Source: Oceanitalea stevensii (GTDB taxonomy: Bacteria > Actinomycetota > Actinomycetes > Actinomycetales > Actinomycetaceae). From it: 64,000 nt of DNA. Every line of letters starts with the position of its first letter. Positions within the stretch are counted from its first letter, which is position 1. The stretch is taken from the NCBI RefSeq assembly GCF_014837105.1, contig NZ_JACSPO010000001.1, positions 935,662 to 999,661 of the forward strand, given 5' to 3'. The notes below the pieces were generated by a model. It was not told where the DNA came from, searched no databases, and worked only from the letters and a program-made list of their open reading frames with translations. Positions 40,023-56,596 of the stretch are shown here, piece by piece. Position numbers and translations under genes: made by a program.

Positions 40023-40366
40023 GCGAGGACCATGGCGGAGGCGATCCCGGCGTCGTGGGAGATCGACAGGTGCCAGGTCCGGACCCCCAGCTCCTCGGCC
40101 CGCACGAGGACCGAGCCGCGCACGTGGACCACGGGCGCCCCGCCGACCACCCGCTCCACCGTGCAGTCCTGCCACGACATCCCGCCCGGCGCGCCGAGCG
40201 CCTTGGCGATGGCCTCCTTGGCCGCGAACCGCGCGGCGAGCGAGGCGGGCGGCAGCTCACGCTCCTCGGGGGTGAAGAGCTTCTCCCGCAGCCGCGGGGT
40301 GCGCTCCAGCGCCCCCATGAAGCGCTCGACGTCGACGACGTCGATGCCCACCCCGACGATGCTCAC
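40013..40366 (-). CDS. acpS: Holo-[acyl-carrier-protein] synthase
   Basis: Transfers the 4'-phosphopantetheine arm of CoA to acyl carrier protein. The 117-residue protein has Asp9 in [10 protein letters not shown] and the Glu of [12 protein letters not shown] that bind Mg and CoA, plus [19 protein letters not shown] 40366 overlaps the glmS stop (GTGA). Its last three codons and stop lie in the downstream 31-bp repeat, so the C-terminus could have been altered by the repeat. Confidence 0.95.
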
Positions 40367-42213
40367 TCGACGGTGACGGACTTCGCGAGGTTGCGCGGCT
40401 GGTCGACGTCGTAGCCCTTGGCTCGGGCCAGCTCGCCGGCGAAGATCTGCAGCGGGACGACGGAGACGAGCGGGGTCATGAGCGTGGGCGTCGGCGGGTA
40501 GCGGAAGACGACGTCGGCGAAGGGCGTGACGTCGTCGTCGCCGTCCTCGGCGATGACGAGGGTGCGCGCGCCGCGGGCCCGGATCTCCTGGATGTTGGAG
40601 ATGACCTTGGCGTGCAGGGTGGGGCGGCGCGGGGTCGGCACGACGACGAAGACCGGCTGGCCCTCCTCGATGAGCGCGATCGGGCCGTGCTTGAGCTCGC
40701 CCGCCGCGAAGCCCTCCGCGTGGATGTAGGCGAGCTCCTTGAGCTTGAGCGCACCCTCGAGGGCCACCGGGAAGCCGACGTGGCGCCCGAGGAAGAGCAC
40801 CGAGGTCGTGTCCTTCATCGCGCGGGCGACCTCGCGGACCTGCTCCTGGCGGGCGAGGACCTCCTCGATCTTCCCGGGGATGCGACCGAGCTCGGTGAGG
40901 TAGTCGGCGACCTCGTCGATGTACTTGTTGCCGCGCAGCTGGGCGAGGTACAGGCCCAGGAGGTAGGTCGCGGTGATCTGGGCGATGAAGGCCTTCGTCG
41001 AGGCGACGGCGACCTCCGGCCCGGCGTGCGTGTAGAGGACGGCGTCGGACTCCCGGGCGATGGTCGAGCCGTAGGTGTTGACGACGGCGAGCACCTTGGA
41101 GCCCTGCTCGCGGGCGTGGCGCACCGCCATGATCGTGTCCATCGTCTCCCCCGACTGGGAGATGGCCACGACGAGGGTCTTCTCGTTGACGACGGGGTCG
41201 CGGTAGCGGAACTCGTGGGCGAGCTCGACCTCGACGGGGATGCGGCACCAGTGCTCGACGGCGTACTTCGCCACGTGCCCCGCGTAGGCGGCGGTGCCGC
41301 ACGCGACGACGATGATCTTGTCGATGCTGCGCAGGATCGTCTCGTCGATGCGCAGCTCGTCGAGCTTGAGACGCCCCAGCTCGTCGGTGCGCCCGAGCAG
41401 CGTGTCGGCCACGGCCTGCGGCTGGTCGTGGATCTCCTTGTCCATGAAGGAGTCGAAGCCGCCCTTGACGGCCGCCGCGGCGTCCCACTCGACGGTGAAG
41501 GCGCGCGGCTCGACCGGCTGCCCGGCGGCGTCGACGACGCTGACGGAGTCCCCGGTGATGGTGACGACCTGGTCCTGGTCGACCTCGAGCGCGGACTTCG
41601 TCTGCGAGACGAAGGCAGCGACGTCGGAGCCGAGGTAGTTCGCGCCGTCGCCCAGCCCGATGACGAGCGGGGAGTTGCGGCGGGCGGCGACGATCGTGCC
41701 CGGGTGGTCGGCGTGCACCGCGAGCAGGGTGAAGGCGCCCTCGAGGCGCTTGGTCACCTCGAGCATCGCGGCGGTGAGGTCACCCGCGTAGGTGCGGCCC
41801 AGGAGGTGGGCCACGACCTCGGTGTCGGTCTGCGAGGCGAAGGTCGCGCCGTCGGCGAGGAGCTCGTTCCTCAGCTTGGCGAAGTTCTCGATGATGCCGT
41901 TGTGGATGAGCGCCAGGCGCCCGTCGCCGGACAGGTGGGGGTGGGCGTTCTCGTCGGTCGGCGCGCCGTGGGTGGCCCAGCGCGTGTGCCCGATCGCGGC
42001 CTGCGTCCCAGGCAGCGGCTCGCGCTCGAGCTCGTCGAGCAGCCCCTGGAGCTTGCCGGCCTTCTTCCGCGCCGCGAGGGCGCCGTCGGCGACGACGGCG
42101 ATGCCCGCGGAGTCGTAGCCCCGGTACTCGAGACGGGCGAGCCCGTCGAGGACGACGTCGACAGGCGGGGTGCCCTCGGCCGAGACGGACACTGCTCCCA
42201 CGATTCCGCACAT
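40363..42213 (-). CDS. glmS: Glutamine-fructose-6-phosphate transaminase (isomerising)
   Basis: Makes glucosamine 6-phosphate, the first step toward UDP-GlcNAc for cell wall. The 616-residue protein begins MCGIVGAV with the nucleophile Cys2 exposed after Met removal, has the N-terminal glutaminase domain (to about 230), two SIS isomerase domains with [12 protein letters not shown] and [12 protein letters not shown], and ends AKSVTVE. It is coupled to acpS. No glmS ribozyme was seen upstream. Confidence 0.97.
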
Positions 42214-49904: not shown

Positions 49905-50069
49905 ATGGCCTACACAGCACCTCGGCTCGACGAGGTCGGCACCGTCCACGGGCTCACGCTCGGTCGCCAGACACCGGGTCCGAAGAAGGACAACTCGGTC
50001 TGGTCCGGCTACGCCGGGCCGCCGGACAAGCCACCGGCCGGCCCGCACCCGCCGGTCGGCTCCCGCTGA
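49905..50069 (+). CDS. Lasso-type RiPP precursor peptide 1
   Basis: A 54-residue precursor. Residues 1-19 form a lasso leader: Y3xxP6 (the RRE recognition motif YxxP), EVGTV and Thr18 at the penultimate position of TL. The putative core starts at Gly20 (GRQTPGPKKDN...) and ends PHPPVGSR. Asp29 is the only acidic residue near the start, at core position 10, outside the usual 7-9 ring size. It shares MxYxAPRxxEVGxVxxLTLG, GPKKDN and the C-terminus with precursor 2. A strong GGAGAGGAGG ribosome-binding site precedes ATG 49905. Confidence 0.9.
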   Translation: MAYTAPRLDEVGTVHGLTLGRQTPGPKKDNSVWSGYAGPPDKPPAGPHPPVGSR

Positions 50070-50072
50070 CGG

Positions 50073-50108
50073 ACGGGGGCCTCACCGGGAGACCGGTGAG
50101 GCCCCCGT
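50073..50108. terminator. Bidirectional terminator after precursor 1
   Basis: Perfect 16-bp arms (50073-50088 and 50093-50108) with a GAGA loop. It begins 3 bases after the precursor 1 stop and contains the stop codon of the opposite-strand nucleotidyltransferase (50082-50084). Confidence 0.85.
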
Positions 50109-51221
50109 TCCTGCACTGTCCTCCACCGCCCGGAGGTAGATTTCCAGGGCCTCCTCCCCCGCCGTCACCCTCGCGACGGTGGCACCCTCGCGCGGCGCGA
50201 GCCGGTCGACGACCCCCTGGCCCGCGTTCCGCGCCACCTGGGCGACGGTGCGCAGCGCGCCGGGACGGACCGCGCGGGCCACGAGGCGCGAGGGCGAGGC
50301 GTCGCGGCGCTGCCGCTCCACCGGGACGAGCCGGTCGACGGCGTCGAGGACCACGCGCAGCGGCAGGGACGTCCCCAGCATCCGGTAGACGTCCGCCGGC
50401 ACCGGGGTGCCGAGGGTCGCCGTGGCCCGCCGCAGCGCGAGCGCCAGCTGCGCCTGGGCGCCCCACTCGGTGGCGCGCGCCGCGACCACCCGCCAGCTGC
50501 CGACCTGACGGCTGAGCTGGTCGACGTCGACCATCCAGGCGAGCCGGTTGCCACCCGCGAGGGCGGCGTGCAGCGCGACGTGGACGAGGGCGTCCGCCTC
50601 GTCCAGCGCCCACGCCTGGCCCAGGCCGATGCGCACCCGGCGGCGCCGCGCGAGCAGCGCGTCGGTGTCGATCCGGAAGAGGCGGCGCCGCGAGCCCATG
50701 TTGATCATCGCCCAGTGGAGGTCGACCTGGATGCCCGCGGGGGTGAACCAGTGCATCTCGCCCGGGGTCTGGGGGTTGCGGAGCATGTCCTCGTAGTCGC
50801 CCACCTCCCACCCGGCCGCGAGCAGTGCGCGACTGACCGCTCGCAGGTCCTGCGGTGCGACGAGCAGGTCGAGGTCGCCGTAGGGCCGCACGCCGGGCAC
50901 GGGGTGGGCGAGCTCGGACAGGACCGGCCCCTTGAAGACGACCCAGGGGACGTCGGCGAGCACCTCGGACACGTGGGCCAGGAGCATCCCGGCGCGGATG
51001 TGGAGCGACTTCGCGGCGTCCCGGTCCGCCCGCAGCGCCTCGGCCACCGCCGGGGCCGTCTCCCGCAGACGGACGTGGGCGAGCGGCGAGACCCGGTGGT
51101 GGCGGGCGGCCGCCACCACGGCATCGGCCGGCAGGGAGGCGGCGGCCGTGACGTCGCCGTCGTCGCGGCACACGGCGCGGAGGAGCTCGCCGACCGCCCG
51201 GTCGTGGTTCGTGCGCGTCAT
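50082..51221 (-). CDS. Lasso-cluster nucleotidyltransferase
   Basis: A 379-residue protein of the NTP_transf_5 nucleotidyltransferase fold: the central motif is FKGPVLSELAHP, then GDLDLLV at residues 115-121 carrying the metal-binding Asp pair; the rest is helical and Arg-rich. PadeN-type nucleotidyltransferases are found in kinase-bearing lasso clusters such as paeninodin, where they may add a group onto the phosphorylated peptide; this role is not established. ATG 51221 is used. It is divergent from precursor 2 and convergent with precursor 1, sharing a terminator. Confidence 0.82.
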   Translation of the reverse strand: MTRTNHDRAVGELLRAVCRDDGDVTAAASLPADAVVAAARHHRVSPLAHVRLRETAPAVAEALRADRDAAKSLHIRAGMLLAHVSEVLADVPWVVFKGPVLSELAHPVPGVRPYGDLDLLVAPQDLRAVSRALLAAGWEVGDYEDMLRNPQTPGEMHWFTPAGIQVDLHWAMINMGSRRRLFRIDTDALLARRRRVRIGLGQAWALDEADALVHVALHAALAGGNRLAWMVDVDQLSRQVGSWRVVAARATEWGAQAQLALALRRATATLGTPVPADVYRMLGTSLPLRVVLDAVDRLVPVERQRRDASPSRLVARAVRPGALRTVAQVARNAGQGVVDRLAPREGATVARVTAGEEALEIYLRAVEDSAGTGASPVSR

Positions 51222-51510
51222 GCCGTTCCCGTCCTCGCCCGCCGTCGGTTCCGGCGCTACCGGGAGCGTAGCGACGGCACGGGTGCGGGACGGCGTGATT
51301 GCCGGACGCTCGCCGGGGCGCCCGGGGTGAGCGTCCGGGTGAGCGCGGCGCCCCGGGAGCGTCATCCGGGGGTCATCCACGTTCTCGCGCGACAACCGTC
51401 GTCAAGGACGGGGCCCGTCCCTAGGCTCGGTCCCAGTCGGCGGCACCCCCGTTCGCCGACCACACGGCCCCTCCGGGCGTCATGGCTCATCGCTCACGAA
51501 GGAGAAGGAC
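51222..51510. promoter_or_regulatory. Divergent control region for the cluster
   Basis: A 289-base gap between the nucleotidyltransferase (-) and precursor 2 (+). TAGGCT at 51422-51427 could be a -10 box toward precursor 2, giving a leader of about 75 bases; no clear -35 was found. The region otherwise holds no gene. Both divergent transcription units of the cluster must start here. Confidence 0.4.
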
Positions 51511-51663
51511 ATGAAGTACGACGCACCCCGTATGACCGAGGTCGGCAGCGTCCGCGACCTCACGCTCGGCAAGCTCGCCTCCGGTCCGAAGAAGGACAAC
51601 AACATCTGGTGGGACATCTGGGGCGACCCGGCCGACCCGCACCCGCCCGTCGGCTCCCGCTGA
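51511..51663 (+). CDS. Lasso-type RiPP precursor peptide 2
   Basis: A 50-residue precursor with the same leader as precursor 1 (Y3xxP6, EVGSV, Thr18-Leu19) and a core from Gly20: GKLASGPKKDN, then WWDIWGDPADPHPPVGSR. Trp33 aligns with Trp33 of peptide 1. Asp29 is again at core position 10; further Asp occur at 35, 39 and 42. GAAGGAGAAGGAC precedes ATG 51511. It is directly upstream of the cyclase gene with a hairpin between. Confidence 0.9.
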   Translation: MKYDAPRMTEVGSVRDLTLGKLASGPKKDNNIWWDIWGDPADPHPPVGSR

Positions 51664-51671
51664 GCAGGCCA

Positions 51672-51713
51672 GCTGCGGGTCGGACGGTCCACGTGGACCG
51701 TCCGGCCCGCAGC
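51672..51713. terminator. 42-bp palindrome between precursor 2 and the cyclase gene
   Basis: Arms 51672-51692 and 51693-51713 are complementary with one G-T pair and no loop bases by sequence, so a small loop must open. It starts 9 bases after the precursor stop. It resembles the attenuators between precursor and enzyme genes of other lasso clusters, which keep precursor transcripts in excess. Confidence 0.7.
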
Positions 51714-51745
51714 ACGTCCCCCCGTCCCGAGGAGAGGTCCCCCGC

Positions 51746-52924
51746 GTGAGCGCACCGACGGCGCAGGCCACCTTCACCGGCCTCACCCGGGCCGAGACCC
51801 TCCTGGCACTGCCCGAGGCCACCACCGTGCCGGTGCCCGTCGAGCGCACCGGGCTCGGCGCGCGGGCCACCCTCGAGGCGATCCTGCTCGACGCCCTGTC
51901 CACGCCACCGTGCCGCGTCCTCTTCTCCGGGGGCCGGGACTCCTCCGCCCTCCTCGCCCTCGCTGCCCATGTGGCCCGGCGGCACGGCCTGCCCGCGCCC
52001 GTGCCGGTGACGGTCCGCCACCCGACGGCGCCTGAGGCGGACGAGACCGCCTGGCAGGAGCTCGTCCTCGACCATCTCGGTCTTCCCGACCACCTCGTGC
52101 TCGAGTTCGACGGCGAGCAGCGTCTCCTCGGCGAGGTCGCCACCGCGGCGCTGCACCGGCACGGCCCGGTGTGGCCCGAGGCCGTCCAGCTCCACGGGGC
52201 CGTCTACCGCCACCTCGACCCCGGCGTCGTCATCTCCGGGGAGGGGGGCGACGCCATCCTCGACGGGCAGCGGATGGGCGCGGTGCGCGACGCCCTGGCC
52301 CTCACCCGTCCCCGCCGGCGCCACCTGCGCCAGGGACTCCGGGCGGCCCGTCCGAACATCCTGCGCCGCCGCGACATCCGCGCCCAGGGTGCGTCGATCA
52401 GCCCTCCGTGGCTCCGCCCCGCCGCCGCGGACGAGTACCTCGGCCGCGTGACGACGCTGGCGCAGGAGCCGCTGCGCTGGGACCGCGCGACCCGGGAGGC
52501 CCTGCGCTCCCGCCCCATGGCCGTGGCCATGGCGAACTTCGACGCCGGGATCGCCGAGTACGGCTCCCGGCCGGTCAACCCCTTCGCCGACCTCCGGTTC
52601 GCCGACGCCCTCGCGGCGGAGGCCGGCCCGCTCGGCTGGGGGGACCGCACGGCGGTCTTCCGGCGTCTGTTCCACGACGTCCTGCCGGACCGCGTGCTCA
52701 GCCGCCGCTCCAAGGCCTCCTTCAACTCCACCCGGTGGGGCCCGGAGGAGCGCGCGTTCGCCCGGGCCTGGGACGGCACCGGCCTCGACCCCGACTGGGT
52801 CGACCCCGTCGCGCTGCGGTCCGCGTGGCTGGAGGAGGACCCTCACCCGGCGGCCGACTACCTCCTCCACGTCGCCTGGTGCCAGTCCCGGGGCATCCCG
52901 ACGCCGCTCGAGGACGCGCCGTGA
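51746..52924 (+). CDS. Lasso macrolactam synthetase-like protein without a glutaminase domain
   Basis: A 392-residue protein of the asparagine-synthetase fold. The ATP-pyrophosphatase loop is SGGRDSSALL (residues 61-70) and a second ATP contact SGEGGDAIL is at 164-172. Lasso cyclases adenylate the ring acid and close the amide on the leader-free N-terminus. Most have about 600 residues with an N-terminal glutaminase-like domain; here the first motif is 60 residues in, so that domain is absent. GTG 51746 has GAGGAGAGG upstream. It is 82 bases after precursor 2. Confidence 0.85.
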   Translation: MSAPTAQATFTGLTRAETLLALPEATTVPVPVERTGLGARATLEAILLDALSTPPCRVLFSGGRDSSALLALAAHVARRHGLPAPVPVTVRHPTAPEADETAWQELVLDHLGLPDHLVLEFDGEQRLLGEVATAALHRHGPVWPEAVQLHGAVYRHLDPGVVISGEGGDAILDGQRMGAVRDALALTRPRRRHLRQGLRAARPNILRRRDIRAQGASISPPWLRPAAADEYLGRVTTLAQEPLRWDRATREALRSRPMAVAMANFDAGIAEYGSRPVNPFADLRFADALAAEAGPLGWGDRTAVFRRLFHDVLPDRVLSRRSKASFNSTRWGPEERAFARAWDGTGLDPDWVDPVALRSAWLEEDPHPAADYLLHVAWCQSRGIPTPLEDAP

Positions 52925-53370
52925 GCCGGCCCGTCCGCACGCTGCTGCGCCGCCACCCCCGCACCTGGGTCCGCGCGGTCCGGACGGCGGCCCTCGCGGC
53001 GGCCGTCGAGCTCGGCCTGCGCGTCCTGCCGCTGCCCCGGCTCGCCCGGCTGCTGCGGGTGCGGCTCGTCCTCGACGGCACCGCCGGCCGGCGGACCGAC
53101 CCGCGGCTCATCCGGCTGACCGAGGACGAGCGTGAGCGGCTCGACGTCACGTGGCGGGTGCTGCGGCACCGCCCCTTCAACGGGACCTGCCTGCGCCGCG
53201 CCCTGCTCGGCGCGCACGCGCTGCGGTACCGCGACCACGCGGTCCGCATCGGCGTGCAGAAGGTCGCCGGCGAGGTCAAGGCGCACGCCTGGCTGGAGGT
53301 CGACGGGATCGTCGTCGACCCGGACGGCGTCGAGAGCTTCCGTACCCTCACGACCGGAGTCCCCGCATGA
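52921..53370 (+). CDS. Lasso leader peptidase B2 (transglutaminase-like)
   Basis: A 149-residue cysteine protease domain of the lasso B2 family. Catalytic Cys90 is in GTCLRRALL, His122 in KAHAWLEVDG and Asp133 in VVDPDG, the conserved triad. The N-terminal 50 residues are basic and partly hydrophobic. With the RRE protein it should cut the precursor after Leu19. GTG 52921 overlaps the cyclase stop (GTGA). The His-Asp segment matches transglutaminase-like folds. Confidence 0.9.
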   Translation: MSRPVRTLLRRHPRTWVRAVRTAALAAAVELGLRVLPLPRLARLLRVRLVLDGTAGRRTDPRLIRLTEDERERLDVTWRVLRHRPFNGTCLRRALLGAHALRYRDHAVRIGVQKVAGEVKAHAWLEVDGIVVDPDGVESFRTLTTGVPA

Positions 53371-54323
53371 GCCCCGAACCGCCCCAGCGCCTCTACGGCC
53401 TCACCGTCGCGGCCGGCTTCGCCCTCCACCAGCACCGCCCCGCCCCCGCGGGGTCGCGGGTGGACGTCACGGTCGTCGACGGGGCGCCCATGGAGGAGGA
53501 CCGGCGGACCCCCCCGGGCACCGTCCTCCTCGACTTCGGGACCGACCCCGACCGCTGGTACACGGTGACCCGCGACGACGACGGCTCGGTCCTCCTGCGC
53601 GTCCACGGCGTCTGCGACTTCGCCATCAGCCCCGACCTGTCCGAGGTCACCCTCCACCTCGTCCACGGGGCCGCGCCGGGCATGCGGGCGATCATGACGA
53701 CCGGGACCCTGCTCGCCCTCCAGCTCTACCTGCGCGGCCACGCCGTCCTCCACGCGAGCGCCGTCGAGCGGGACGGGACCGCCGTCGCCTTCCTCGGGCA
53801 CTCCGGGATGGGCAAGAGCACCCTCGCCGCACTCCTGTGCGCGCAGGGTGCCCGCGTCGTGAGCGACGACGTCGTGCCGGTGACGACGGGCGACGTCCCC
53901 CTCGTCCCCCTCGGGGCGACCGAGCTGCGGCTGCGCGCGGGCGCCGAGGCGGTGACGGCGGGACTGAGCGACCTCCGGTCACGGGTCAGCGCCGACGACC
54001 GGACCGTCGTGGGGCTGCCCTCGCCCGGCACCGACGCGGTCCCGCTCGGCGCCGTCGTCATCCCTCGGCCCAACCGGGAGGGGCGGCTCGAGCTGGAGCC
54101 CCTCGACGCGAAGTCGGCACTCTTCGCGCTCATGAGCTTCCCCCGGCTCATGGGCTGGCAGGACCCCACCGTCCTCGCCCAGGTGTTCACCCACGCGTCC
54201 TGGCTCGCCCGCAGCGTGCCCGTCCTCGTGGGGCACGTGCCGTGGGGGCCGCCGTTCCGCGAGGACATCGCGCCGGCGATCTGGGCGGCGGTCGACCGCC
54301 TGTCCCCCGCCTACCGCGCCTGA
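53367..54323 (+). CDS. HPr-kinase-like protein of the RiPP cluster
   Basis: A 318-residue P-loop kinase. LHASAVERDG is followed by Walker A GHSGMGKST (residues 144-152) and VVSDDVVPV, the HprK pattern. In the paeninodin cluster, the homologue phosphorylates the C-terminal Ser of the precursor. Here both precursors end in a Gly-Ser-Arg, so Ser53 (peptide 1) and Ser49 (peptide 2) are candidate sites one residue from the end. ATG 53367 overlaps the B2 stop (ATGA). The 3' end overlaps the exporter by 13 bases, in opposite directions. Confidence 0.85.
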   Translation: MSPEPPQRLYGLTVAAGFALHQHRPAPAGSRVDVTVVDGAPMEEDRRTPPGTVLLDFGTDPDRWYTVTRDDDGSVLLRVHGVCDFAISPDLSEVTLHLVHGAAPGMRAIMTTGTLLALQLYLRGHAVLHASAVERDGTAVAFLGHSGMGKSTLAALLCAQGARVVSDDVVPVTTGDVPLVPLGATELRLRAGAEAVTAGLSDLRSRVSADDRTVVGLPSPGTDAVPLGAVVIPRPNREGRLELEPLDAKSALFALMSFPRLMGWQDPTVLAQVFTHASWLARSVPVLVGHVPWGPPFREDIAPAIWAAVDRLSPAYRA

Positions 54324-56185
54324 GGGACTCCCGGGTCGCCGAGGTAGGCGGCGGCCTGGAGACGGAACAGCTCGGCGTACATGCCCTCCCGGGCCATGAG
54401 CTCGTCGTGGGAGCCCGCCTCGACGACCTGTCCCTGGTCGAGGACGTAGATGACGTCGGCGGCACGCACCGAGGAGAAGCGGTGCGAGATGAACACGGCG
54501 GTTCGTCCGGCGAGCACGGAGCGCAGCGAGTCGTACAGGGCGCTCTCCGCGCGGGGGTCGAGGGCCGCGGTGGGCTCGTCGAGGATCATCAGCTGCGCGT
54601 CGCGGTAGAAGGCGCGGGCGATCGCCACCCGCTGCCACTGGCCGCCCGAGAGGTCGCGTCCGCCCTTGAACATCCGGGACAGGATGGTGTCGTAGCCGGC
54701 AGGGAGCGCCTCGAGGAAGTCGGCGGCGCCGGCGCGGCGCGCGGCCTCGTCCACGCGCCCGCCGTCGGGGTCGGCCGTGGCGCGGCCGAAGGCGATGTTC
54801 TCGCGGGCCGTGAAGGCGTACCGGACGAAGTCCTGGAAGATCACGGCGACGCGGTCGCGCACCGAGACCCGCGAGTACGCGCGGGTGTCGCGGCCGTCCC
54901 ACCGCACGGCCCCGGCGCTGGGGTCGTACAGGCCGGCGAGGATCTTGGCGAGCGTCGTCTTGCCCGAGCCGTTCTCCCCCACGAGGGCGACGACCTGCCC
55001 GCGGCGGATGCGCAGGTCCACGCCCCGCAGTGCCTCGGTGGCGCTGCCCGGGTAGCTGAAGCGGACGTCCTCGACCGTGATCTCCCCGAAGGTCGGGGGC
55101 GCCGGGTCCCCCTCCTCCTCGTCGCGCGCCGTGGCCGCGAGGTCCATGAACTGGTCGACGTCGGAGAGGAAGAGCCCGGCCTCGAAGATCGACTGCATGC
55201 CGCGCAGCAGGGCCTGGACCTGTCCCTGGAGCATCCTGATCGCGACGATGGCGGCGCCGGCCTGGGCCACGGACACTGCGCCGCGGCCGATGAGCGTGAC
55301 GAGCACGAGGAGGGTGCCGGTGAGGACAGCGGCGGACCCGAGGTTCCCGACGGTGCTCAGGGCCAGCCGTCGCCGCAGGTGACGCGCGAGGTCGGCGAGG
55401 TACCGGGCGTAGAGCTCGTCGAAGCGTGACCGGAACGGCCCGCCGAGGTCGAAGGCGCGGACCTCCTTGGCCTCGTCCCGCGTGGTGAGGAGGTAGCTGA
55501 GGTAGTAGCGCTGCCGCTGGCGCGGCGTCTGCGCGACCATGAACTGGAACTCGCGCCGGCTCTCGCGCCGGTTGGTGAGGATCATCGGCAGCCCGCCGAG
55601 CAGGAGCAGCGGCAGCAGCACCGGGTGGATGCCCGCGAGGACGGCGCCCACGCCGACCGTCGCGGCCAGGCCGCCGACGATCCCGAGCAGAGCCTGGGTC
55701 ACCTGGAAGGGTCGGCTCGTCGCGCTCGCCTCGACCCGCTGTAGCCGGTCGTAGAAGGAGGCCGACTCGAAGTGGCGCAGGGAGACGGCGGTGGCCGCGT
55801 CCAGGACGTCCTGGTAGGTGCGCCGGGCCACGGACTCACCGAGGAAGCGGCTCATGCTCCCGCGCACCGAGTCGAGCAGCGCGGCCGCGGCCATGAGTCC
55901 CGCGAGGCCGAGCGTCGCGGCGACGAGCACGGTCGGCACGCCGCCGCCCGGACCCAGCTCGAGCACGGCCGAGAGGAAGGACTCGACGACGAGCACCTGG
56001 CCCGCCAGGACGAGCGCCGCGATCACCTGGACGACGAGGAGCCCGACGAACAGCAGCCGTCCGGAGCCCCAGACGAGGCGCGTCGAGCGGCGGACCAGCT
56101 GCCACAGGCGGCCGGCGGAGCGACGCTGGTTGCGGCTCTCGATCTGGAGGTCGAGGGGGTCGAGCGGCTCGGACTCCTCGGTCAT
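54311..56185 (-). CDS. ABC exporter of the lasso cluster
   Basis: A 624-residue half-transporter expected to work as a homodimer, with six helices in the first ~320 residues and an NBD with intact Walker A (GENGSGKTT), signature (LSGGQWQRVAIARAF) and Walker B (LMILDEPTAALD). Lasso clusters usually have such an exporter that also gives immunity. There is no peptidase C39 domain, consistent with separate B2 protease. The ATG at 56185 is 19 bases after the RRE gene's stop, so the two form a minus-strand operon. Confidence 0.9.
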   Translation of the reverse strand: MTEESEPLDPLDLQIESRNQRRSAGRLWQLVRRSTRLVWGSGRLLFVGLLVVQVIAALVLAGQVLVVESFLSAVLELGPGGGVPTVLVAATLGLAGLMAAAALLDSVRGSMSRFLGESVARRTYQDVLDAATAVSLRHFESASFYDRLQRVEASATSRPFQVTQALLGIVGGLAATVGVGAVLAGIHPVLLPLLLLGGLPMILTNRRESRREFQFMVAQTPRQRQRYYLSYLLTTRDEAKEVRAFDLGGPFRSRFDELYARYLADLARHLRRRLALSTVGNLGSAAVLTGTLLVLVTLIGRGAVSVAQAGAAIVAIRMLQGQVQALLRGMQSIFEAGLFLSDVDQFMDLAATARDEEEGDPAPPTFGEITVEDVRFSYPGSATEALRGVDLRIRRGQVVALVGENGSGKTTLAKILAGLYDPSAGAVRWDGRDTRAYSRVSVRDRVAVIFQDFVRYAFTARENIAFGRATADPDGGRVDEAARRAGAADFLEALPAGYDTILSRMFKGGRDLSGGQWQRVAIARAFYRDAQLMILDEPTAALDPRAESALYDSLRSVLAGRTAVFISHRFSSVRAADVIYVLDQGQVVEAGSHDELMAREGMYAELFRLQAAAYLGDPGVPQAR

Positions 56186-56204
56186 CGCCCGGCCTCGCGG
56201 CTGG

Positions 56205-56456
56205 TCACCGCAGCAGCCCCTTGGCGGCGAGGTCGGCGGCGAAGGCCGCCGCGTCCGCCTCGGCCGTCGCACGGTCGATCCCGTACTCCGCGACGAGCGC
56301 GTCGGCGAGGTCCTCGACGGACCGCTCCTCGGTGAGCAGCTTGGCCAGGTGGGCGCCGGCCACGTTCGTCGTGAGGTAGACCGAGCGCGCGGTGTCGAGG
56401 ATGACCAGCTCGTCGTCGATCTCCTGCCAGGTGATGCCCTCGCTGCGCAGCTGCAC
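56205..56456 (-). CDS. PqqD-like RRE protein (lasso B1)
   Basis: An 83-residue protein of the PqqD/RiPP recognition element fold: a beta-rich N-terminus with WQEIDDELVILDTARSVYL, then helices with LAKLLTEE and DLADALVAEYG. It binds the YxxP leader and brings precursor to B2 and the cyclase. GTG 56456 is 5 bases after AGGGAG; GTG 56462 in the same frame is an alternative with poor spacing. It heads the minus-strand pair with the exporter. Confidence 0.85.
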   Translation of the reverse strand: MQLRSEGITWQEIDDELVILDTARSVYLTTNVAGAHLAKLLTEERSVEDLADALVAEYGIDRATAEADAAAFAADLAAKGLLR

Positions 56457-56596
56457 GTGCACTCCCTCTCGAGTCCTCCGGCCGCTGTCGCGCGCCCGGG
56501 ACCGCGCGGGCGCGGCGACGCGGCCCGGCAGTCGTGGTGAGCGTACTGCCGGGGTCGGCCGCGTCACGGGGGCGGGGCGGACGATCGTGGGTGCAC

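Follow-up and report, generated by a model that had tools for sequence, protein, structure and literature searches.

The window analyzed here (a 64,000-nucleotide stretch of Oceanitalea stevensii, contig NZ_JACSPO010000001.1, positions 935,662 to 999,661) harbored, at positions 49905-56459, a complete cluster for a lasso-type ribosomally synthesized and post-translationally modified peptide (RiPP). Its eight genes, all of them open frames, were ordered as precursor 1 on the forward strand, a nucleotidyltransferase (NTase) gene on the reverse strand, the genes for precursor 2, cyclase, B2 protease and kinase on the forward strand, and those for an exporter and a RiPP recognition element (RRE) on the reverse strand (Table 1). 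An initial annotation, made from the letters of the sequence, had proposed such a lasso-type cluster, with a kinase, a nucleotidyltransferase and a split, divergent organization; Pfam and NCBIfam matches located every part where it had been placed, and both the assignment and the layout held. Two features had been overlooked, namely a ring acid at core position 10 and the half length of the cyclase.

Table 1. Genes and hairpins of the lasso-type cluster, with positions counted within the window.
Feature	Positions	Strand	Size	Supporting features
Precursor 1	49905..50069	+	54 aa	leader MAYTAPRLDEVGTVHGLTL, core GRQTPGPKKDNSVWSGYAGPPDKPPAGPHPPVGSR
Terminator-like hairpin	50071..50110		18 bp	between precursor 1 and the NTase gene, which converge; z -6.67
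NTP_transf_5 nucleotidyltransferase-like protein, PsmN-type by domain	50082..51221	-	379 aa	Pfam PF14907, E 2.5e-41; motif KG...R..GDLD
Precursor 2	51511..51663	+	50 aa	leader MKYDAPRMTEVGSVRDLTL, core GKLASGPKKDNNIWWDIWGDPADPHPPVGSR
Hairpin	51672..51713	+	19 bp	between precursor 2 and the cyclase gene; z -4.53
AsnB-like macrolactam cyclase C, synthetase half only	51746..52924	+	392 aa	Pfam PF00733 (Asn_synthase), E 2.2e-17; GATase_7 absent
B2 leader protease	52921..53370	+	149 aa	NF033537 (lasso_biosyn_B2), 58.5 bits (cut-off 33); Transglut_core3, E 1.1e-13
HprK-like kinase	53367..54323	+	318 aa	motif H129...GHSGMGKS...DD167; Hpr_kinase_C PF07475, E 3.3e-6
MsbA-type ABC exporter	54311..56185	-	624 aa	PF00005 (ABC_tran), E 9.3e-35; PF00664, E 9.8e-4
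Discrete RRE (PqqD-like B1)	56205..56459	-	84 aa	PF05402, 57.6 bits, E 1.7e-15

The RRE and the B2 protease of the lasso class were both present above their cut-offs (PF05402 and NF033537), each as the sole match of its kind (PqqD and B2, respectively) in the whole genome. Against the NCBIfam lasso leader model NF033521 (cut-off 19), precursor 2 scored 26.9 bits and precursor 1 just below the cut-off, with 17.3 bits; precursor 1 possessed the leader register of precursor 2 as well as Gly1 and Asp10. The cyclase, B2 and kinase genes overlapped successively by 4 bases each. The hairpin following precursor 2 is probably an attenuator raising the precursor over the enzymes, and the one between the converging genes may act as a terminator. 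The exporter matched the MsbA model with an E-value of 1e-77 (262 bits, below the cut-off of 602).

A half-length cyclase and cores with aspartate at position 10

On TIGR01536 the cyclase matched nothing outside positions 250-517, and on the lasso cyclase model (NF033535, 668 positions) its best stretch started at position 255, with a score of 18.4 bits for a cut-off of 525. When species genomes were searched with the cyclase alignment, 60 loci were recovered, all with actinobacterial titles. Asn_synthase was detected in all 64 cyclases scanned, the window's included, and GATase_7 in one, the other 63 being devoid of an N-terminal glutaminase-like domain; Ser61, Gly62, Gly63, Asp65, Ser66, Glu100, Arg320 and Lys323 were invariant in 64 of the 64 rows. 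The lone cyclase with GATase_7 (642 residues, Phytoactinopolyspora, L056:3184-5109) had its own divergent precursor (SRCNPNLSGPPPKD...) and lay near a half-length cyclase. A separate gene supplying the missing N-terminal domain was considered and rejected: GATase_7 was found at two genome sites, none in the cluster, one of them a GlmS-like protein (SIS + GATase_6) at window positions 40363-42213 and the second some 240 kb beyond the window.

Sequence searches returned no solved relative of the cyclase at an E-value of 0.01. Its AlphaFold2 model (pLDDT 94.3) had 1jgt, 7ylz and 8sue as best Foldseek hits (beta-lactam synthetase, hydroxyamidotransferase and asparagine synthetase), with beta-lactam synthetase the nearest in fold; the 18 best hits showed 14-19% identity and TM-scores by query of 0.39-0.54. 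Beta-lactam synthetase also forms an intramolecular amide, and both it and asparagine synthetase carry an additional N-terminal domain.

The precursors of these loci were collected as pattern-matched small open reading frames (ORFs), among which plausible leaders were kept by eye. The resulting list held 90 peptides, or 88 distinct cores once a duplicate core and the peptide next to the full-length cyclase were dropped. Outside the list were near-copies (precursor 1 of the genus genome G041, L092 and L093), the decayed precursor 1 of G065, the fused precursor 2 of G041, and L099, L101 and L104; none was kept for L063. Thr stood exactly 15 residues past the leader Tyr in 90 of 90 precursors, both of the window's included. 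The choice by eye was checked with a position-specific leader score omitting the Thr, used in place of a first automated leader search (hmmsearch) that gave no matches. Of the 60 loci, 45 contained hits by this score, 53 in all, and Thr was at Tyr+15 in 52 of the hits (the remaining hit was not precursor-like); one shuffled ORF scored equally high. The score recovered 51 distinct cores, all already listed, and missed 20 listed cores.

The leader register is thus fixed, and the lasso rule places the start of the core two residues past Thr. Both window precursors possessed the YxxP and Thr at -2 of lasso leaders, and with Thr at -2 Asp10 was the sole acid within the first 14 residues of either core. 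The Asp or Glu at core positions 7-9 that characterizes lasso peptides was absent from the window cores and would appear only with the cut shifted by one. The statement of the initial annotation that all lasso parts were present was sound for the leader, the RRE and the B2 protease, and went too far for the cyclase without a GATase-like domain and for the cores without an acid at 7-9.

A set of 16 precursors was grouped for Gly1 and Asp10, two residues that are therefore given by the grouping. In this set the residue following Thr was Leu or Arg, and acids occurred at positions 7, 8 and 9 in eight, one and three precursors, respectively; the five precursors of the window's genus had no acid there. 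In Jiangella and others, the cores possessed Ala1 or Gly1 with Asp9. An aromatic residue was present at Asp+3 to +5 in 16/16 precursors of the Gly1/Asp10 set, in 22/26 Gly/Ala1-Asp9 cores and in 44% of shuffled tails. Because this aromatic spacing is kept, Asp10 and the Asp9 of the sister clades are probably the same Asp, with one residue inserted between the cut and the Asp. At the C-terminus, ten of the 16 ended in GSR and six in Ser, Ser being the end of 60 of the 74 others.

On the cyclase tree, core-type labels were set by hand, with judgement for several Lys-type rows, and the tree excluded the cyclase fragments of L074, L078 and L081 as well as a second, fragmentary cyclase of L054. The 16 cyclases labeled Gly1/Asp10 formed one clade (bootstrap 97, SH-aLRT 89; 97% of 200 bootstrap trees), the first 13 having a value of 86 in a quick tree. 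These 16 cyclases and the 16 precursors are not matched one to one, as the window has two precursors and L026 is labeled with its precursors unlisted. The GSR-ending precursors belonged to a ten-row cyclase subclade (starred in the quick tree) that includes the window's. Long precursors of Isoptericola and Cellulosimicrobium (L032:9664, L033:9661, L034:8263 and L074:3309) carried their Asp at core position 13, preceded by a Lys six residues earlier; all four contained two Cys, making a disulfide possible, and three of the four ended in CFVS.

Conservation of the cluster

In the window, the cluster was flanked on the left by genes for an alpha/beta hydrolase and a tRNA pseudouridine synthase, and on the right by those for ribosomal protein L17 (rplQ) and the RNA polymerase alpha chain (rpoA). 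Of the six Georgenia genomes, counting the window's, five had the cyclase (the remaining one being 57% complete), and the cluster occupied the same place between the same neighbors in the four other near-complete genomes, or five of five with the window's. Since the same neighbors flank it in these four genomes, the cluster is more than a chance assembly. The six enzyme, pump and RRE proteins were 70-95% identical across the near-complete genomes, and the main-locus cyclases shared 71-90% identity with that of the window.

A type 2 precursor was present in all four other near-complete genomes, one copy being fused to the cyclase: in G041 (L015:8185-9519), a deletion took the end and the stop of precursor 2 together with the hairpin, and the frame runs into the cyclase. 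Precursor 1 was intact in the window and in G041, and decayed in G065, where the remnant (L014:7670-7850) had no start codon, a lost leader Tyr and an altered end; it was not found at the cluster locus of G084 or G008. The two-precursor layout reported by the initial annotation is accordingly a local variant: a single precursor occupies this place in two Georgenia genomes, and two others have one of the pair decayed or fused. Every near-complete genome of the genus thus keeps at least one sound precursor. In G008 (Georgenia satyanarayanai CGMCC 1.10826), the main cluster was without B2, and a second precursor-cyclase-B2-kinase set lay about 8 kb away (L016:3679-6433), leaving the genome's one B2 and one RRE to serve the two sets.

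At an E-value of 0.01, precursor 2 was matched in seven of 151 genomes of the wider family, its own included; one of the seven (G137) was a weak match with no cluster around it and was rejected as spurious. In the order, the precursor profile was matched in 22 of 396 genomes, again counting its own. Gene presence was further assessed by protein profiles at the 34 full-flank relatives, i.e. the loci with at least 20 kb of sequence. The kinase and B2 were each found in 33, the RRE in 31, the NTase in 30 and the exporter in 28 of them, with all six proteins in 25. The kinase and the NTase occurred together in 30 of the 34, and the pair is therefore the normal set of this actinobacterial family and no peculiarity of the window, as had been supposed from its occurrence in an actinobacterium. 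The kinase has been reported from Firmicutes, Proteobacteria and Bradymonadales, and its combination with a nucleotidyltransferase from Bacillota (PMC9266682, PMC8498205, PMC7533575, PMC10368454, PMC13381572; here and below, statements on cited papers refer to the portions of their text that were available).

Ring size

What the sequences establish is the set of genes and how it is conserved, a leader register that is fixed, and the Gly1/Asp10 pattern with its match to the cyclase phylogeny. The reading favored for them, held with even confidence, is a ten-residue (31-atom) macrolactam within a phosphorylated, tagged lasso-type product. The RRE would bind the YxxP of either precursor and recruit B2, which would cut two residues past the conserved Thr (TL/G, the slash marking the cut). 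The half-length AsnB-like cyclase would then adenylate Asp10, the sole acid available, and couple it to the amino group of Gly1, closing the ten-residue ring; the aromatics three to five positions past the Asp could act as plugs holding the tail. The kinase would phosphorylate a Ser, for which the penultimate residue of the conserved GSR end is the likeliest candidate; the NTP_transf_5 protein would place a sugar or nucleotide on the phosphate, and the MsbA-type pump would export the product. Every chemical step of this scheme is inferred from the sequences, as are the threading and what the phosphate carries.

Genomes with a single B2 and two kinds of cores bear on the position of the cut. 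The G008 genome possessed one B2, one PqqD-like RRE, two cyclases and two precursors, LTL-GSQFLAAYTDN (D10) and LTL-ALTGHGRDDQ (D8/D9). Georgenia subflava possessed one B2 and one RRE, with LTL-GLDSWKEWKDE, plus LTL-GETLQGNADW at a site holding only a cyclase, and Cellulosimicrobium arenosum possessed one B2 with the precursors LTL-GWDTWREYQDE and LTL-GYPQNCKYGHGADN. A difference in ring size is the simplest explanation, because one protease and one register serve two cyclases and two spacings.

A ten-residue ring and a shifted cut each break one rule. If B2 cut after TLG (Thr at -3), an ordinary nine-residue ring would form between Asp9 and the Lys of core 2 or the Arg of core 1. Such a cut would retain a known ring size (9 residues, 28 atoms; PMC13352647), would match the Asp-to-plug spacing of the Asp9 relatives and would leave at -1 a Gly that is invariant in the 16-precursor set, but the 16 sequences would then start their cores with nine different residues (K, R, S, A, D, W, Q, L, G). 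Moreover, the canonical T-x-G pattern fits TL/G, and the single B2 of G008 and of G. subflava would also have to process TL/A or TL/G precursors with Asp9. The shifted cut is thus regarded as unlikely, if the more serious of the alternatives.

Less probable still is an unthreaded macrolactam or, with no ring closed, a linear peptide that is (poly)phosphorylated and sugar-tagged in the manner of the linear polyphosphorylated peptides (LPPs) of Bacillota. The LPP clusters share an RRE, an HprK kinase, an NTP transferase and an MsbA-like pump with the window (PMC13381572), the larger ring would presumably be harder to plug, and the cyclase is short of one domain; however, B2 is present here, the conserved cyclase residues are intact, and LPP clusters have an SpI-like peptidase, another leader motif and mostly neither cyclase nor B2 (PMC13381572). 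A decaying remnant without a product, as the damage to precursors in G065 and G041 and the missing B2 of the G008 locus might suggest, is very improbable given the open frames of all eight window genes, at least one sound precursor in each of five genomes and the cyclase identities reported above.

Several points weigh against a ten-residue ring in a tagged product. Lasso rings have 7-9 residues (PMC8498205), and changing a ring by one residue usually lowers the yield (PMC13352647). No ten-residue lasso ring, half-length lasso cyclase or AsnB-like Lys-Asp ring was found in the available portions of the open-licence literature. Outside the window's GTDB genus, all 11 precursors of the set have a further acid at position 7, 8 or 9. 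Three Gly1/Asp10 cores (L051b, L052a and L078) fell outside the set: L051b and L052a, with Lys 7 or 6 before the Asp, were labeled as Lys type, their cyclases lie outside the clade, and relabeling L051b and L052 as Gly1/Asp10 would break the single clade; the L078 core stood beside a cyclase fragment only, which is not in the tree. The argument from the B2 of G008 fails should one of its two sets no longer work. As for the tag, the kinase falls short of the curated cut-offs for the named HprK families (27.2 bits for a cut-off of 33.3 with PF07475, 42.6 for 200 with TIGR04352), and a penultimate Ser is no known acceptor of a lasso kinase.

The cores of sister clusters that do not start with Gly or Ala showed another regularity. 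Lys stood exactly six residues before Asp (K-x5-D) in 25 of 33 distinct cores (3.2 ± 1.6 in shuffles, with 0/500 reaching the count) and six or seven before it in 30 of 33 (0/2000 shuffles). Gly/Ala cores were enriched too, weakly, with K-x5-D in 8/55 (reached by 7/500 shuffles) and the wider spacing in 14/55 (2/2000). In the leader-score set, the exact and the six-or-seven spacings occurred in 16/20 and 19/20 non-Gly/Ala cores, respectively, and in 8/31 and 10/31 Gly/Ala cores; Lys occupied core positions 2 to 8, and once 15, over its 24 K-x5-D cores, and 17 of its 20 non-Gly/Ala cores had no acid at 7-9. The Lys-Asp distance is fixed and the Lys-cut distance variable, and the pattern is therefore as expected of a Lys-Asp side-chain lactam, which suggests that the sister clusters may make macrolactams of this kind. 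Alternatively, the Lys could be needed for recognition and not for the ring, or the N-terminus could be trimmed back to the Lys. Counted by hand, a K-x5-D ring has 26 atoms, and lasso rings of 8, 9 and 10 residues have 25, 28 and 31, respectively. The window cores were without K-x5-D, the residue six before Asp10 being Ala or Thr.

K-x5-D, or sometimes K-x6-D, was observed in L044, L052-L055, L057-L059, L061, L062, L064, L065, L070, L072, L073, L076, L079, L082, L084 and others. Because the Lys-type label needs at least six changes on the cyclase tree, the Lys type is not one recent family. A phylum-wide search with a profile of the K-type cyclases matched three of 396 genomes at an E-value of 1e-40, the window's own among them. 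G626 possessed two such cyclases; the two precursors nearby start with Gly, have Asp9 and are without the motif, which counts against a tight link between K-type cyclases and K-x5-D. In G661, no precursor was found near the K-type-profile cyclase, whose frame holds a stop. Further K-type hits in one family (four of 12 genomes) were close kin of sequences already in the set, and the family of G626 yielded no additional one (one of 21 genomes).

With less than even confidence, these half-length AsnB-like enzymes can tentatively be viewed as a separate Actinomycetota family of RiPP cyclases whose ring is freed from the N-terminus and the 7-9 rule: the clade of the window would close ten-residue head-to-side-chain rings (31 atoms), and the sisters K-x5-D rings that leave an N-terminal overhang free, while leader, RRE and B2 stay the same. 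If either the ten-residue ring or the use of a Lys side chain in the sisters is true, the defining rule of the lasso class would have to change, and macrolactam synthesis would gain a compact single-domain cyclase. Lasso genome mining expects an acid at position 8 or 9 counted from Thr at -2 (PMC7533575), and cores like the window's would be scored down or mis-cut by it.

Phosphate, cargo and comparison with known systems

The two enzymes of a phospho-glyco lasso system, an HprK-like kinase (under the curated cut-offs given above) and an NTP_transf_5 protein, were both present. The kinase retained the His, GxSGxGKS and Asp-Asp, His-Lys-Asp-Asp being the conserved set of lasso kinases (PMC9266682); among solved structures it had weak sequence matches only, the best being an HPr kinase at an E-value of 0.023. 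Known lasso kinases act on a C-terminal Ser or on Ser3 (PMC9266682, PMC10368454). The C-terminal acceptor Ser of the pseudomycoidin type was absent from both cores, which end in GSR with a penultimate Ser. This penultimate Ser is the likely phosphorylation site, core 2 also having Ser5, and both peptides probably receive a phosphate and then a further tag. If the NTP_transf_5 protein acts like PsmN, it would add a hexose to the phosphate; the true cargo of PsmN, sugar or nucleotide, was left open in the available text (PMC9266682), and the present cluster offers an actinobacterial system for asking what such a protein transfers. By sequence, the solved relatives of the NTase amounted to 28 TAL-repeat chains, which matched its C-terminal third without any single stretch passing by itself, and one MurT chain at an E-value of 1. 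The likeness of that third of the protein (50085-51221, reverse strand) to TAL-effector repeats was weak and is probably a matter of composition.

Judged by its genes, the cluster would work like a phospho-glyco lasso system, yet the position of its ring acid does not conform and its cyclase is far below the cut-off of the lasso cyclase model. The pseudomycoidin (psm) cluster of Bacillus pseudomycoides is likewise a lasso cluster with a kinase and a nucleotidyltransferase. PsmK phosphorylates the C-terminal Ser and PsmN adds one or two hexoses to the phosphate (PMC9266682, PMC8498205). Compared by description, psm is a Firmicute system, and the window differs from it by a half-length cyclase, an acid at position 10, a penultimate Ser before Arg and two precursors. 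Paeninodin-type clusters have a YxxP leader, a discrete RRE and B2, and the ring of paeninodin comprises nine residues. Their kinases (PadeK, ThcoK, SyanK) are HprK-like with the conserved His-Lys-Asp-Asp, as in the window (PMC9266682); they phosphorylate a C-terminal Ser, whereas the window has a GSR end and Asp10.

The bsf cluster of Bradymonadales resembles the window in having a kinase (BsfK) within a lasso cluster, its RRE aiding both kinase and protease, but unlike the window it has Ile at -2, is phosphorylated on Ser3 and is not actinobacterial (PMC10368454). From the Bacillota LPPs, whose RRE, kinase, NTP transferase and pump have counterparts here, the window is set apart by its cyclase and B2, a different leader and the absence of a signal-peptidase domain among the scanned cluster proteins; the LPP leader reads YxxPxVLxHQxIxFETxxS, and only some one in three of its SpIs has a linked cyclase and B2 (PMC13381572). 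Finally, the modeled cyclase appears to have the fold of the synthetase half of beta-lactam and asparagine synthetases, without their additional N-terminal domain.

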